From positions 186,001 through 250,000 of the forward strand of contig DATEMU010000005.1 in assembly GCA_035275405.1 (NCBI GenBank): a stretch of DNA of 64,000 nt, given 5' to 3'. Below are positions 6,071-13,071 of the stretch, in pieces (the stretch's first letter is position 1; every line of letters begins with the position of its first letter). The notes below the pieces were generated by a model. The model did not search any database. It was not told the DNA's origin and worked only from the letters and a program-made list of their open reading frames with translations. The position numbers were made by a program, and so were the translations under genes. The DNA comes from Phycisphaerae bacterium (lineage in GTDB: Bacteria > Planctomycetota > Phycisphaerae > UBA1845 > UTPLA1).

Positions 6071-7207
6071 CTATTTCTTCTCCTCTTCGGGCGGCACCTC
6101 GTCCTTGATGGTGATGATCGCCTCGCCGGCCTCGTGCAGTTTGCCGGCCTTCTCCAGCTTCTCCTGTAACTCGCCCGGCTGCCGGGCCTTATCGAGCATT
6201 TCCGCGGCGTCGATCATGCCCTTCTCATACAGCGACCAGAGGTGCTCATCGAGAAGCTGCATCCCGTACTTCTTCCCGGTCTGGATGGCCGAGTCGATGC
6301 GGAAGGTCTTGTTCTCGCGGATCAGGTTGGCAATCGCCGGCGTCACCACGAGAAACTCGTAGGCGGCGACCATGCCCGAGGGCTTTCGCGGCATGAGCGC
6401 CTGCGAAAGGATCGCGATCAGCGACGTGGAAAGCTGCACGCGAATCTGGTCCTGCTGCTCGTGCGGAAAGGCGTCGATAATTCGGTTCACGGTACCCTGG
6501 CAACCGGTGGTGTGCAGCGTCGAGAAGACCAAGTGGCCCGTTTCGGCGGCGAGAATGGCGTTGGAGATCGTCTCCAAATCGCGCATTTCACCGACGAGAA
6601 TCACGTCCGGATCGGACCGAAGCACGCGGCGCAGGGCCTCGGCGAAGCTCGGCACGTCGTTGCCCACTTCGCGCTGATTGATCAGGCTTTTCTTGTGCGA
6701 ATGGTAGTATTCGATCGGATCCTCGACGGTCACGATGTGGCGATCCATCTCGTTATTGATGTAATTGAGCATCGACGCCAGCGTCGTCGTCTTGCCGGAG
6801 CCGGTCGGTCCGGTCACGAGGAAAAGACCGCGAGGCCGGCGGCACAGGGCCCGGCAGATGGGCGGCAGGCCGATTTCCTCGAAGGTGAGGAACTTGCTGG
6901 GAATCAATCGCAAGACAATCGAGACGTTGCCCTTCTGGCGAAAGATGGAAACGCGGAAGCGGCCCGCATCGCCGAAGGCGAAACCAAAGTCCGTGCCGCC
7001 CTCTTCCTGCAGCTCCTGCTGGTTGCGGTCCGGCGTGATGGACTTCATCAGCGCGACGCTGTCCTCCGGCTCGAGCACCTTCGTCTCCAGTTGCCGGAGG
7101 CGGCCATGGAGCCGAAGCACGGGCGGACGGCCGACGGACAAATGGATATCCGACGCACCCTTCTTGATGCACGTTTCGAGAATTCGATCAATGTGAATCG
7201 TTGCCAT
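6071..7207 (-). CDS. pilT: twitching motility retraction ATPase PilT
   Basis: Retraction ATPase of type IV pili. 378 residues from MATIHIDRIL; the usual PilT length. It shows Walker A GPTGSGKTT (about 130-138), the Asp box VEDPIEYYH, Walker B DPDVILVGEMRD, the His box TGHLVFSTLHT and the C-terminal AIANLIRE block, close to PilT's AIRNLIRE. It has no zinc Cys cluster, unlike PilB. The longer frame to 7255 is rejected because its extra codons lie in the double-hairpin repeat at 7212-7277. The gene sits between two GspE/PilB-type ATPase genes, all minus strand. Confidence 0.92.
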   Translation of the reverse strand: MATIHIDRILETCIKKGASDIHLSVGRPPVLRLHGRLRQLETKVLEPEDSVALMKSITPDRNQQELQEEGGTDFGFAFGDAGRFRVSIFRQKGNVSIVLRLIPSKFLTFEEIGLPPICRALCRRPRGLFLVTGPTGSGKTTTLASMLNYINNEMDRHIVTVEDPIEYYHSHKKSLINQREVGNDVPSFAEALRRVLRSDPDVILVGEMRDLETISNAILAAETGHLVFSTLHTTGCQGTVNRIIDAFPHEQQDQIRVQLSTSLIAILSQALMPRKPSGMVAAYEFLVVTPAIANLIRENKTFRIDSAIQTGKKYGMQLLDEHLWSLYEKGMIDAAEMLDKARQPGELQEKLEKAGKLHEAGEAIITIKDEVPPEEEKK

Positions 7208-7211
7208 AGTT

Positions 7212-7277
7212 GTAGGGCGGGCGCTGCCCGCCGTGTTTAATCGTCCTTGCTCCATCGGCGGGTGGAACCCGCCCTAC
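7212..7277. repeat. REP-like double hairpin between pilT and pilB
   Basis: Outer arms GTAGGGCGGG (7212-7221) and CCCGCCCTAC (7268-7277) are perfect inverted repeats. Inside are two perfect 7-bp hairpins, GGCGGGC/GCCCGCC (7216-7232) and GGCGGGT/ACCCGCC (7257-7273). It fills almost the whole gap between the two genes and may affect relative expression or mRNA stability. Confidence 0.7.
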
Positions 7278-7283
7278 CCCCAA

Positions 7284-9005
7284 CTACTCTGCCAGGATCT
7301 CCGCCTGGGTGATGCGCGATATCTCTTCCGTCGTCGTGACGCCCCGCAGAATCTTACGATGACCGTCCTGAAGGAGCGACGTCATACCCGCGGCCTTGGC
7401 CGCCTTGCGGATCTCCTGCGCGCCCGCGCGATTGAACGCCAGCTCGCGCAGTTCGTGGTTCATCGTGAGCATTTCAAAAATGCCCTGTCGGCCGCGATAG
7501 CCGCTGTTGTTGCAGTGCGAGCAGCCGACCGCCTTGTACAGCGTCTTGCCTGCGATCATCTCCTCCGTCATGCCGCAGACGCGCAGCAGCCCCACGTCGG
7601 GGTGCTCGTCGGGCTGCTTGCACTCCTTGCACAATATGCGAACCAGCCGCTGGGCCATGATCGCCTGGATGCTGCTGGCGATGAGGAACGGCTTGATACC
7701 CATGTCGATCAACCGTGTGATCGCGCTCGGCGCGTCATTCGTGTGCAACGTGGAAAAGACGAGGTGACCGGTCAGCGCCGCCTGAATGGCGATTTCGCCG
7801 ACGACGAGGTCGCGAATTTCACCGACCAGGATGATGTTCGGCGCCTGGCGAAGCATCGACCGAAGGATCTTGTCAAAGCCCAGGCCGATGTCATCGCGGA
7901 CCTGGCATTGGTTCATGCCGGGAAACACGTATTCGACGGGGTCTTCCGCCGTGATGATCTTCTTGTCCGGTCGATTCAACTCCTGCAACGCCGCGTACAA
8001 CGTCGTCGTCTTGCCGGAGCCGGTCGGGCCCGTTACGAGGAAGATGCCGTTGGGCCGCGAGATGATTTTCTGAAAACGCTCGTAGTCTTCGGACTCAAAC
8101 CCAAGCGCTTGGATGCCGATGTTGGCCGAGTCGGGCCGCAAGATACGAAGGACGATCGATTCGCCGTGTACGCCCGGGCAGCACGAGACGCGGAAGTCGA
8201 TGTCCTTGCCGCTGATCCGCATCTTAATGCGGCCGTCCTGGGGCACGCGGCGCTCGGAAATATCCACGCCCGCCATGATTTTCATGCGGGTCGTGACCGC
8301 GTTCTGCAGGCGCTTGGGGACATTCTCCCGCTCCACGCAGACGCCGTCGGTACGATAGCGCACGCGCACGCGGTCGGTCATCGGCTCCACGTGGATGTCG
8401 CTCGCCCGCGTCCGCACCGCCTCGCTGATCATCATGTTGATGAGCTTGATAATAGGGGCGTCAGCCTCGTCCACGCCGGCCTTCTTCGCCGCCTCCTTGG
8501 CTTCCTGGTCGAGCGATGCGTCCACCGAGGCATCCAGGCTCTTGGACAATTCGTCGAGCGAGCGATCCGCGCCGGAAAGATACTTTTCGATATACGCCTT
8601 GATCCGCCCCTTGGGGGCGAGGACCGGTTCAACATCGCTTACACCGAGGCGGAAGCGAAGCATGTCCAGCGTATCCAGGTCCAGCGGGTCGTGGATGATG
8701 ACCTTGAGCCGACCGTTGTCGCTGCTCATGGGGAGAATCAAGTTTGCTTTGATGAGTTTTTCGGGGACCAGCGCGAGGGCGTCGGCGCTGATCGTCTGCC
8801 GCGAAACTTCCACGTAGGCCAGGCCATGCTGCTCGGCCAGCGCCTGAGCGACCGCTTCTTCGGATGCCAATTCCAATTCGACCAGGGCCTCTCCAATGCG
8901 CTTCCGATTGTTCAGACCGAACTCCGCGGCGCGATCGGCATCGGCCTTGGAGACCAGCCCCTTCTCCTGCAGGATCTCGCCGAGTTTTTGTCGTTTACGA
9001 GCCAT
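7284..9005 (-). CDS. PilB/GspE-family assembly ATPase (second copy)
   Basis: Pilus or type II secretion extension ATPase, 573 residues, first gene of the operon. It has the MshEN N-terminal domain (about 5-140), a linker rich in Asp/Ala, Walker A GPTGSGKTT, EDPVEYVFPG, PNIILVGEIRD, the His box TGHLVFSTLHT, and the zinc site CKECK with CSHCNNSGYRG. ATG 9005 gives the family-like start MARKRQKLGEIL; the GTG at 9020 adds five residues. It is similar in layout to the 4274-6028 protein but clearly diverged, so two separate machines may be fed. A 7-bp hairpin (CACAGCC/GGCTGTG, 9018-9037) lies just upstream. Confidence 0.9.
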   Translation of the reverse strand: MARKRQKLGEILQEKGLVSKADADRAAEFGLNNRKRIGEALVELELASEEAVAQALAEQHGLAYVEVSRQTISADALALVPEKLIKANLILPMSSDNGRLKVIIHDPLDLDTLDMLRFRLGVSDVEPVLAPKGRIKAYIEKYLSGADRSLDELSKSLDASVDASLDQEAKEAAKKAGVDEADAPIIKLINMMISEAVRTRASDIHVEPMTDRVRVRYRTDGVCVERENVPKRLQNAVTTRMKIMAGVDISERRVPQDGRIKMRISGKDIDFRVSCCPGVHGESIVLRILRPDSANIGIQALGFESEDYERFQKIISRPNGIFLVTGPTGSGKTTTLYAALQELNRPDKKIITAEDPVEYVFPGMNQCQVRDDIGLGFDKILRSMLRQAPNIILVGEIRDLVVGEIAIQAALTGHLVFSTLHTNDAPSAITRLIDMGIKPFLIASSIQAIMAQRLVRILCKECKQPDEHPDVGLLRVCGMTEEMIAGKTLYKAVGCSHCNNSGYRGRQGIFEMLTMNHELRELAFNRAGAQEIRKAAKAAGMTSLLQDGHRKILRGVTTTEEISRITQAEILAE

Positions 9006-9264
9006 AGTCGTGTGTGGCACAGCCCCTCTCGGCTGTGATTCATCCGCGACGCATTCCGCGCTCGCGACAAACCACCCGGGCCGCTCGCCCTCGGGGTAGG
9101 AGGTCCGATTTCGCTCAGCAGTCGGCCGCGGTCATCCTGGGGGAAATCATGCGCGCTGGGTGCAGGTATGTTCCCTTACCAGGCGATTTTAGCAGAGTTC
9201 CTTGAGGAATGTCTATGTCGGGCCCGGGGGCGGATAGGGACGGGCTACGCCTGTGATTTAGGAC

Positions 9265-10257
9265 TCATTTCATTCCGGACTTTCTGAGTGCCGCGGGCAG
9301 GAAGTCGATCAGGTCGGTGGCCATGAGCGAGACGCGGCCCCGTTCGCGGGCCGCCAAATCGCCCGCCAAACCATGAACATGGACGCCAAGTGCGGCAGCA
9401 TCAAGGGTTGAAAGGCCCTGGGCGACGAATGCCGCGATGACGCCGGTCAGCACGTCACCGGTACCGCCCGTGGCCATGCCGGGGTTGCCGGTACGGTTGA
9501 CATAGAGCGAGGCCCCATCCGTAACAATCGTCCCCGCCCCCTTGAGGACGACGACAATCTGGTGCTGGGGAAACCCCGAACCGCCGAACATCTCGCGGGC
9601 GGTGCGGGCAGCGAAGCCGAGGCGGTCCTGCTGGACCGCTGAGGTGGAGACGCTGTGTAGCCGGGCCATCTCGCCGGCGTGCGGCGTGAGGATGGTGCGA
9701 TAATGCCGCGTGTTATCCCAGCCCGCGCGTCGGTCTTCGCCGGCCAGGCGAATGGCGTGCAGCGCGTCGGCATCGAGAACAGCCGGCACATTCGCCGTGC
9801 CAAAGGAACTGACCAGGCTGACCACTTGGGCGTCAAAGCGGCGGTCGCTACGGCCGAGGCCGGGACCGACGGCCACGACCGAAGGCGCCCCGCCGCGATC
9901 GAAGACACGATGGGCCCGGAGCGTTTCGAGCGTCAGATGCGGGACGAGCAGACCCTCGGGCCCTTCGGGCAGCGCGATCGAGGTCGCACAAGGACAGAGT
10001 GTGGCGACGGCGAGTTGGACCGAGCGCGGAACGGCAACGACAACGAGCCCCGCGCCGGCGCGCAGGGCGGCATTGGCGGCAAGGGCGGGCGCCCCAATCA
10101 TTCCCCGCGAACCGCCGATAATCAGGACACGACCAAAGTCGCCTTTATGGGCGTCTTTTTTTCGAGGGGGCAGCTTCGCCGGCCGAGTGATTTTCCGCAG
10201 GCGAAGAGCGGGTTTTCGAGGCGTCTTGCTTTCGGACTTTTTTGTGCGTTTGGCCAT
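9265..10257 (-). CDS. nnrD: ADP-dependent NAD(P)H-hydrate dehydratase
   Basis: Repairs hydrated NADH/NADPH using ADP. The 330-residue product matches the YjeF C-terminal carbohydrate-kinase-like fold: GRVLIIGGSRGMIGAPALAANAALRAGAG (about 43-70), a TPHAGEMARL block, and NPGMATGGTGDVLTG (about 273-287), which holds the catalytic Asp. The NnrE epimerase half found fused in E. coli is absent, so this is the standalone form. A Lys/Arg-rich N-terminal extension of about 35 residues is unusual. It lies 21 bases after the histidine kinase stop, so the two are likely co-transcribed. Confidence 0.9.
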   Translation of the reverse strand: MAKRTKKSESKTPRKPALRLRKITRPAKLPPRKKDAHKGDFGRVLIIGGSRGMIGAPALAANAALRAGAGLVVVAVPRSVQLAVATLCPCATSIALPEGPEGLLVPHLTLETLRAHRVFDRGGAPSVVAVGPGLGRSDRRFDAQVVSLVSSFGTANVPAVLDADALHAIRLAGEDRRAGWDNTRHYRTILTPHAGEMARLHSVSTSAVQQDRLGFAARTAREMFGGSGFPQHQIVVVLKGAGTIVTDGASLYVNRTGNPGMATGGTGDVLTGVIAAFVAQGLSTLDAAALGVHVHGLAGDLAARERGRVSLMATDLIDFLPAALRKSGMK

Positions 10258-10278: not shown

Positions 10279-12093
10279 TCACTCCTCCATGACGCGCCGC
10301 CCCACCAGGCTGGTGGCGACGGCGATCAACTCGACGGCATCCACCGGTTTGGCGACGTGCATCTGGTAGCCCGCCTGCAACGTCCGGACCCGATCTTCTA
10401 ATCGTGCAAAGGCCGTCAGCGAAATGGACGGAACCTGGCCCCCGCGCTCCCGGGGTCGGCCGCGAACCGCGCGCATGAACGCAAAGCCGTCCTGATTGGG
10501 CATCCCCAGATCGCTGATCACCAGATGGGGAACGACTTGGTCGAGTATACCTAGCGCAACGGGGCCCGATTCCGCCAGGAGCACCTCGGCTCCGTGTTGC
10601 TCCAGGAGCCGTTTGATCAACTCTCTCGCATCCGCCTCATCATCCACCACGAGTATCCTGATTCCCTTGAGCGAATCCCCGTGCAGTTGAATGGGCCGCG
10701 ACATGCCCGCCACCGGATGAAAGAACCCTTCGGCAGCTCCGTCCCTCCGAACCGGCGACAACGGTAAAGTGACGATAAACGTCGCGCCCAGTCCGTCACC
10801 GGGGCTCTTCACCCGGACCGTTCCGCCGTGCAGTTCCACCAGGTGCCGCACGATGGACAACCCCAGACCGAGTCCGCCCTGGGGGCGCGCCGGCGAGGGG
10901 TCTTGTTGTCGAAACCGGTCGAAGACGTAAGGGAGAAATTCTGTCTTGATGCCTTGCCCGGTGTCGGCCACGCTCAGTTCGAGATGAGAATTGACTCGCT
11001 CCAGCGTCACCTGGATCTGCCCGCGCGCCGGTGTGAATTTGATCGCGTTTGTCAGCAGGTTCCAGACAATCTGTTGCAAGCGGTTGGGATCGCCGCTGAT
11101 CGCGCCCACCCCTGAGTCCAGCACCTTTTGCAGGCGAAGCCCCTTGGCTTCGATCGCCGGGGCGACCGAATCGATCGCCGCTTCGATGACCGGGATGAGG
11201 TCCACCGACTGGACGTCCAGGCGCACCTTGCCCGCGATAATCCGGCTCATGTCCAGGAGGTCATCAATGATCTTCGTTTGCGCCCGGGCATTGCGCTCGA
11301 TTGTCTCCAGGCCGCGCCGCTGTTCTTCGTCCGTCCCGCCCGCCTTGCGCAGAACCTGGGCCCATCCGAGGATCGCGTTGAGCGGCGTGCGCAGCTCGTG
11401 CGAGAGAGTGGCGAGAAACTCGTCCTTCATTCGATTAGCGCGTTCCGCCTCCCCGCGGGCGAATTGCTCGCTGGCCAGGAGTTGCTGGCGCTCCTCCTCG
11501 GCCCGCCGGCGTTCGTGAATCTCCATTTCCAGGGCGCGGTTGATCTCCGCCAGCTCCGATGTCCGCGCCTCTACCCGCCGCGCGAGATCGTTTCTCGAGA
11601 GTTGCAGCTCCGCTTCCGCCGCCTCCCGCACGCGAACCTGCTTGGCCAACTCCTCGTTTGCGAGGCGCAACTGCGCCGGGCTGGGCAGCAGGAGCGCCTT
11701 GGGAATGAGCCGCCACAGAAGTATCGCGGTCAGGATCGACACGATCGCCGTCGCGAGCTTGACCACGCCGTCCAGGCGGTAAACGGGCTGCCACATGTCC
11801 CAGACCCCGAAGATGTGCGTCGTCCCGCAGGCCAGGATGAACGCCGCGAACATGAGGAACATCCAGTTGAATTCAAGGTCGCGCCGCCTTCGAACGAAGT
11901 ACACCAGCGCGATGGGAATTGAGTAATAGGCGACGGCGATCAGCGCGTCGGAAATGACATGCAACCAGACGACATCGGCCTCTTGTCGCATGCACAGCCG
12001 CCGCGGCATGAAGACCTCGAAGAAGTTGGAAAAGAACCCACCGCCCTCCTGGGCCAGGAGCGATGGGACAGAGCTATAGGCGAGCGATTCCAT
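10279..12093 (-). CDS. hybrid histidine kinase with ethylene-receptor-like sensor domain
   Basis: 604 residues. Residues about 43-130 form three membrane helices with a pattern identical in spacing to plant ETR1: Asp49, Tyr56, Ile59, Pro60, Ile86, Cys89, His93, corresponding to ETR1 D25, Y32, I35, P36, I62, C65, H69. Cys65 and His69 bind Cu(I) in ETR1. There follow a coiled coil (140-225), HisKA with phospho-acceptor His232 in SHELRTPLN, a HATPase domain with GLGLGLSIV, and a C-terminal receiver (VVDDEADA, ISDLGMP, AKP). No GAF domain is present, unlike ETR1. It probably senses ethylene or copper. No output regulator is next to it; nnrD follows. Confidence 0.9.
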   Translation of the reverse strand: MESLAYSSVPSLLAQEGGGFFSNFFEVFMPRRLCMRQEADVVWLHVISDALIAVAYYSIPIALVYFVRRRRDLEFNWMFLMFAAFILACGTTHIFGVWDMWQPVYRLDGVVKLATAIVSILTAILLWRLIPKALLLPSPAQLRLANEELAKQVRVREAAEAELQLSRNDLARRVEARTSELAEINRALEMEIHERRRAEEERQQLLASEQFARGEAERANRMKDEFLATLSHELRTPLNAILGWAQVLRKAGGTDEEQRRGLETIERNARAQTKIIDDLLDMSRIIAGKVRLDVQSVDLIPVIEAAIDSVAPAIEAKGLRLQKVLDSGVGAISGDPNRLQQIVWNLLTNAIKFTPARGQIQVTLERVNSHLELSVADTGQGIKTEFLPYVFDRFRQQDPSPARPQGGLGLGLSIVRHLVELHGGTVRVKSPGDGLGATFIVTLPLSPVRRDGAAEGFFHPVAGMSRPIQLHGDSLKGIRILVVDDEADARELIKRLLEQHGAEVLLAESGPVALGILDQVVPHLVISDLGMPNQDGFAFMRAVRGRPRERGGQVPSISLTAFARLEDRVRTLQAGYQMHVAKPVDAVELIAVATSLVGRRVMEE

Positions 12094-12324: not shown

Positions 12325-12360
12325 GATCGCGCACATCGCCGGATGCGAGGGAGAGAATCG

Positions 12361-13071
12361 ATGTCAAGAAGCGGCAGGTCCCCTGTCACGTTAATGGCTG
12401 TGCTGGTCTCCACGGCTTCGGCGGGTGCGTGGCCGCCGACCGTGATCGATTTCGACACCTACCCCGACGGCTCGATGGTCCAGCCCAGCGATCGCTTCAC
12501 GACGCAGTATTCCACCGTCGGCGTCGAGTTCACCGATGGCGGCGCGACCGGCCCGGCGCCGTCGGGAAACCCGTGTTCGATCTCACCGCCCAATCACGCA
12601 TACGCCACGACGATCGTCGCCTATTTCGTCGACCCCTGCACCGGCATCCAGTCGGCCACCGACTACGCCGGGACGCAGCAGGATTCCTGCTGGGCTCCGG
12701 GCGAGGGGATCGACATGTATTGGTATGACGCCAACGGGAATCTGCTGGACCATCAATTCAACTCCGGCGGCGGCAACTTCGTGGCCCTCAGCACTCCGCA
12801 ACCCGTTATCGCCCGCTTGGAGATGCAGTGCATCCTGCAGGGCATCGACAATTTCACATTCAGCGAGCCGGTCGCCGTGCTCCGGGGCGATATGGACTGC
12901 AACGGCCTGTTGGAAATCGAAGACGTCGAGCCGTTCGTCCTCGCGCTCATCAACGCCCCGGCGTACATGGCGGCCTACGCAACGTGTGACATCCGCCGGG
13001 CCGACATGAACTGCGACCGGAAGGAGGACGGCCTGGACGTGCAGGGATTCACCGACGCGCTGGTGCCGTAG
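12361..13071 (+). CDS. secreted protein with dockerin-like EF-hand tail
   Basis: 236 residues. A signal peptide (MSRSGRSPVTLMAVLVSTAS) precedes a beta-rich domain of unknown function with VIDFDTYPDG near its start. The tail has two calcium-loop-like units, GDMDCNGLLEIEDVEPFVLAL and ADMNCDRKEDGLDVQGFTDAL, the dockerin-like pair common on planctomycete secreted proteins. The ATG at 12361 is preferred over 12343 because GGGAGAG lies 5-6 bases upstream of it. It is monocistronic and divergent from the kinase. Confidence 0.75.
   Translation: MSRSGRSPVTLMAVLVSTASAGAWPPTVIDFDTYPDGSMVQPSDRFTTQYSTVGVEFTDGGATGPAPSGNPCSISPPNHAYATTIVAYFVDPCTGIQSATDYAGTQQDSCWAPGEGIDMYWYDANGNLLDHQFNSGGGNFVALSTPQPVIARLEMQCILQGIDNFTFSEPVAVLRGDMDCNGLLEIEDVEPFVLALINAPAYMAAYATCDIRRADMNCDRKEDGLDVQGFTDALVP

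Follow-up and report, generated by a model that had tools for sequence, protein, structure and literature searches.

A planctomycete hybrid histidine kinase carrying an intact ETR1-type ethylene-binding domain

Experimental tests exist for only a handful of microbial ethylene receptors, and the locus described here raises the question of whether a hybrid histidine kinase from a Phycisphaerae bacterium should be counted among the candidates. The gene lies in a window of 64,000 nucleotides, which is the whole stretch of DNA that was analysed and to which all coordinates below refer. A sequence-only reading had proposed that the gene encodes an ETR1-type ethylene-binding domain (EBD) in a hybrid kinase, with direct coupling to HisKA and receiver (REC) modules and no GAF domain. 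A 604-aa open reading frame (ORF) with an ATG start was confirmed on the minus strand, and its features are as follows:

10279..12093, minus strand: whole gene, hybrid sensor kinase of the order ETR1_N-coiled coil-HisKA-HATPase_c-REC, 604 aa
11692..11973, minus strand: EBD with three transmembrane helices, aa 41-134, according to PF25487, hydropathy and AlphaFold2
11431..11679, minus strand: linker, aa 139-221, blank in Pfam, one unbroken helix into the DHp helix according to AlphaFold2
11233..11430, minus strand: HisKA, aa 222-287 (Pfam), phospho-acceptor H232 in LSHELRTP
10756..11094, minus strand: HATPase_c, aa 334-446 (Pfam), with the NLLTNAIKF, DTGQGI and GLGLGLSI boxes intact
10318..10656, minus strand: receiver domain (Response_reg), aa 480-592 (Pfam), with VVDDE, D528 in ISDLGMP and the Lys in AKPVD

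Both parts of the proposal were borne out. The N-terminal domain matches PF25487 (ETR1_N) with an E value of 1.3e-42 and 144 bits against a Pfam cut-off of 27, and a profile search of the kinase's own genome returned a single ETR1_N domain with the same span as in Pfam. HisKA, HATPase_c and REC all score above their Pfam cut-offs and are the only Pfam domains that follow the EBD; no GAF or PAS domain was found in the kinase by Pfam, and aa 134-222 are without any domain. The H, N and G boxes as well as the Asp and Lys of the receiver are all intact, as in a hybrid histidine kinase. By sequence homology, the ORF is a hybrid kinase with an ETR1-type domain, chance being ruled out by an E value of 1e-42.

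The sequence-only reading had also claimed that all seven ethylene-site residues of ETR1 are present at identical spacing, and this proved correct at one constant offset of +24: D49, Y56, I59, P60, I86, C89 and H93 correspond to ETR1 D25, Y32, I35, P36, I62, C65 and H69. In a direct alignment, the EBD is 40% identical to that of Arabidopsis ETR1 over 91 aa. A previous study describes the conserved Asp of the site as salt-bridged to a Lys that is conserved as well (PMC13012798). The equivalent of ETR1 Lys91, the partner of Asp25, is K112, which follows a loop between helices 2 and 3 that is three residues shorter than that of ETR1; the same region aligns without gaps, and with the same short loop, to AzoEtr1 of Azospirillum brasilense Sp7, whose sequence was taken from a replicon of that strain. 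Judged from these alignments, the Asp-Lys pair appears to be present as D49 and K112. Among 38 loci from the phylum, selected by HMM independently of the site residues, D, Y, I35, P, C, H and Lys are each conserved in 38/38, and I62 in 36/38. Since few positions of the family are as strongly conserved as the site residues, their exact spacing provides no independent evidence, and the seven-residue match marks the kinase as an intact family member, not as an unusual one. At aa 30-32 (11998-12006), just ahead of helix 1, the kinase reads PRR; in its bacterial relatives this place is taken almost without exception by a PHG motif, which is also absent from ETR1.

Because all site residues as well as the kinase and receiver motifs are kept, the protein is taken here as a Cu(I)/ethylene receptor, probably a bacterial receptor of the ETR1 type with Cu(I)-mediated ethylene binding and a phosphorelay output. 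In ETR1, one Cu(I) is bound per monomer, and its ligands are C65 and H69 (PMC6586836). The EBD of the kinase would be built from its three N-terminal membrane helices. On the model of ETR1 and AzoEtr1, Cu(I) would be held by two residues of helix 2, C89 and H93, and ethylene would bind to the copper, while D49 (paired with K112) and Y56 would shape the site. Binding of ethylene may then shift helix 3 together with the uninterrupted coiled coil of residues 139-250, thereby altering the autophosphorylation of H232. From H232 the phosphate would pass to D528 in the fused receiver, and from there probably to an HPt protein and on to separate regulators, the HPt step and the outputs being presumed. 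Four HPt matches are present in the genome; three are above the cut-off and lie inside very large reading frames, and the fourth is weak and lies in a 143-codon frame.

The AlphaFold2 model consists of helices at residues 39-69, 76-101 and 105-134, followed by a longer helix without a break (139-250), which leads into the kinase. As a copper-free monomer (mean pLDDT 77.8, pTM 0.43), the model shows the helices, not the copper site. As modelled, the helix of residues 139-250, which runs through the DHp helix, would fit a direct mechanical coupling of helix 3 to H232. A search for a solved structure of the domain found none, the sole match being a synthetic protein with an E value of 0.04.

According to another explanation, the domain is an EBD by structure but binds no ligand in this protein, its role being to dimerise a kinase that is driven otherwise and to anchor it in the membrane. 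The loss of the PHG motif before helix 1 would agree with this, as would the orphan state of the gene, which has no partner regulator; no response regulator gene adjoins the kinase at the locus. However, every site residue is intact and the domain is 57-66% identical to EBDs of other phyla, both of which argue for a kept function, so we consider an idle anchor quite unlikely and retain the reading of a copper-dependent ethylene receptor.

Comparison with plant receptors showed that the likeness to Arabidopsis ETR1 covers the EBD, with the seven residues and the Lys91 equivalent, and also the order of the output modules, since ETR1 likewise has a histidine kinase followed by a REC. ETR1 differs in that it contains a GAF domain and signals mainly via CTR1. 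In the plant ethylene receptor subfamilies, a GAF lies between EBD and kinase, a trait that the kinase described here does not share, a continuous helix being predicted at this place. The complete order ETR1_N-coiled coil-HisKA-HATPase_c-REC was found in two proteins, from Phormidium tanganyikae FI6-MK23 (L066) and Leptolyngbyaceae cyanobacterium SM1_3_5 (L098), which differ from the kinase by phylum, being cyanobacterial, and are 48-50% identical to it over about 578 aa. By the same count, the linker is 87 aa long in all three proteins, linker lengths being available only where the H-box regular expression matched, so that kinases with other H boxes were missed. The EBD also runs directly to HisKA at four loci (L022, L003, L105 and L123). 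The GAF-less layout, which the sequence-only reading had pointed out, also occurs in cyanobacteria and acidobacteria and does not set it apart.

Among bacterial receptors, AzoEtr1 has been studied by expressing its first 130 aa in yeast, and this part was found to bind ethylene with high affinity (PMC11819568). AzoEtr1 belongs to the same domain family as the kinase, has the seven residues, the Lys and the short loop, is about 57% identical in the EBD, and falls into the same set in the tree described below. Unlike the kinase, which has a fused receiver, no PAS and no adjoining regulator, AzoEtr1 contains a PAS domain, lacks a receiver, and is followed downstream by a separate response regulator gene (PMC11819568). 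SynEtr1 (Synechocystis slr1212) and GeiEtr1/2, which are likened here by their description, are also bacterial EBD-histidine kinases, for which ethylene binding by cells or by the expressed domain has been reported (PMC6682694). What sets them apart from the kinase is a cyanobacteriochrome domain in SynEtr1, a GAF in GeiEtr1, and a PAS together with a GAF in GeiEtr2.

The planctomycete host assumed in the sequence-only reading was confirmed by an rpoB tree, in which the genome, together with its same-family and same-order relatives, joins a Phycisphaerae MAG (97/100) and is separated from the acidobacterial and proteobacterial rows; the rows of Azospirillum and SJ401 were disregarded in this tree, because the frame used there was not rpoB. 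Outside the window, the RpoB of the host (L186, G000:C3:1049500-1055500) has an insertion of about 230 residues at model position 391/392, which is shared by two same-family genomes and absent from a same-order genome of another family.

The ETR1_N domain was detected in 9/61 genomes around the host's family and order, and in 42 of 392 genomes (about 11%) sampled evenly across the phylum, so a planctomycete version of the domain is not unusual. A scan of GTDB contigs returned more than 500 relatives of the domain, the best 80 of which come from Acidobacteriota, Bdellovibrionota, Verrucomicrobiota, Planctomycetota, Pseudomonadota and Cyanobacteriota. Several among these best 80 share 60-66% identity with the kinase's EBD, and such identity across phyla suggests transfer. 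Sensors of this kind are fairly common in the phylum, and the kinase is a further example of a known receptor type, which is no surprise.

A check by phylogeny asked whether the domain would fall outside the proven ethylene receptors. In a quick tree of 119 domains, 35 planctomycete rows split from all others, and the kinase EBD was placed among the others; forcing it into the 35-row planctomycete group gave an AU p of 0.50, so this placement was not rejected. For a careful tree of 74 rows, AzoEtr1 was included, and near-copies, plant sequences and rows on long branches were taken out. This tree supports a planctomycete-only clade (100/97) and places the kinase EBD in a 23-row set together with AzoEtr1 and proteobacterial and acidobacterial domains (97/92), so the check did not refute the assignment. 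Moving the kinase EBD to the planctomycete-only clade was rejected in the careful tree (AU p 0.002), for which the rows and the tested group were picked after the quick tree had been seen. The domain trees comprise 106 columns, and their GTDB rows were chosen by likeness to the kinase EBD, so that "planctomycete-only" may be a sampling effect. After helix 2, the kinase reads VWDMW, AzoEtr1 LWTLW and ETR1 LWTF, and the planctomycete-only clade is mostly of the FWWPxYR type; the resemblance of VWDMW to the AzoEtr1 and ETR1 motifs agrees with the tree placement.

The members of the planctomycete-only clade (loci L003-L011 and L024-L050) come from the same phylum and keep the ethylene-site residues, and several genomes contain two or three ETR1_N copies each. 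Tentatively, and at a little below even chances, Planctomycetota may possess two EBD lineages, namely this clade and a set of canonical receptors of the type seen in Azospirillum and cyanobacteria, the kinase included, that were probably gained by transfer.

It has also been considered that the EBD binds Cu(I) but senses another signal, such as copper itself, carbon monoxide, another small alkene or the redox state, its residues being kept for the metal. The copper ligands of ETR1, C65 and H69, are indeed within the conserved set (PMC6586836). The domain has many members with diverse hosts and outputs, which need not share one signal, and the present organism is without a known ethylene source. 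Nevertheless, the remaining five site residues, which are required for ethylene binding in ETR1, are conserved too, and the EBD groups with AzoEtr1, a high-affinity ethylene binder. Sensing of another signal is thus rated as rather unlikely, and ethylene remains the preferred ligand.

The genes around the kinase were compared with those of its relatives, beginning with the gene directly downstream:

9265..10257, minus strand: nnrD, NAD(P)H-hydrate dehydratase (PF01256, E 2e-48; TIGR00196 above cut-off)

The nnrD gene starts 21 bp downstream of the kinase on the same strand, which makes co-transcription plausible, as the sequence-only reading had claimed, but the partnership of the two genes is not conserved. 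Of the 24 relatives searched, 23 possess nnrD, and none of these 23 has an EBD kinase beside it; a conserved ETR-nnrD operon was rejected on this synteny. At least nine relatives have a LarB-type gene upstream of nnrD, two of them confirmed by NF033503 (E 2e-87 and 4e-85) and the others assigned by shared sequence. The order larB-nnrD is often kept in relatives, and the larB of the kinase's genome lies on another contig (C3), so the adjacency of kinase and nnrD most likely reflects a local rearrangement. The small gap and the shared strand could also mean that the two genes work together, with the repair of damaged NAD(P)H placed under the control of ethylene or copper stress. Such a partnership is very improbable, given that no nnrD homologue was found in the surroundings of EBD loci, read over stretches of up to 12 kb in the relatives and up to 4 kb per side in GTDB genomes, and that the adjacency is specific to this genome, many relatives having the larB-nnrD order. 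It is unlikely that nnrD contributes to the function of the sensor. Beyond nnrD, the same strand encodes two ATPases of type II/IV secretion or pilus systems (PilT-like, PilB-like, T2SSE) at 6071-9020. Upstream of the kinase, a divergent gene at 12343-13071 encodes a 242-aa protein with no Pfam match and a dockerin-like end (DMDCNGLLEIEDVEPFVLALI... DMNCDRKEDGLDVQGFTDAL).

As a genome finding alone, the kinase is ordinary. With sensor and kinase joined by one helix and neither GAF nor PAS in between, it offers a compact receptor for studying how the ethylene signal reaches the kinase. No paper on planctomycete ethylene receptors or their binding was found in the literature searched, phylum-listing reviews (e.g., Papon and Binder 2019) lying outside that set. 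If the domain binds ethylene, sensing of this gas would be extended to a phylum unmentioned in the papers searched. What remains possibly interesting is the second, planctomycete-only EBD clade, which lies outside the original claim; if the phylum does hold two lineages, ethylene sensing would be a widespread and undescribed trait of Planctomycetota.
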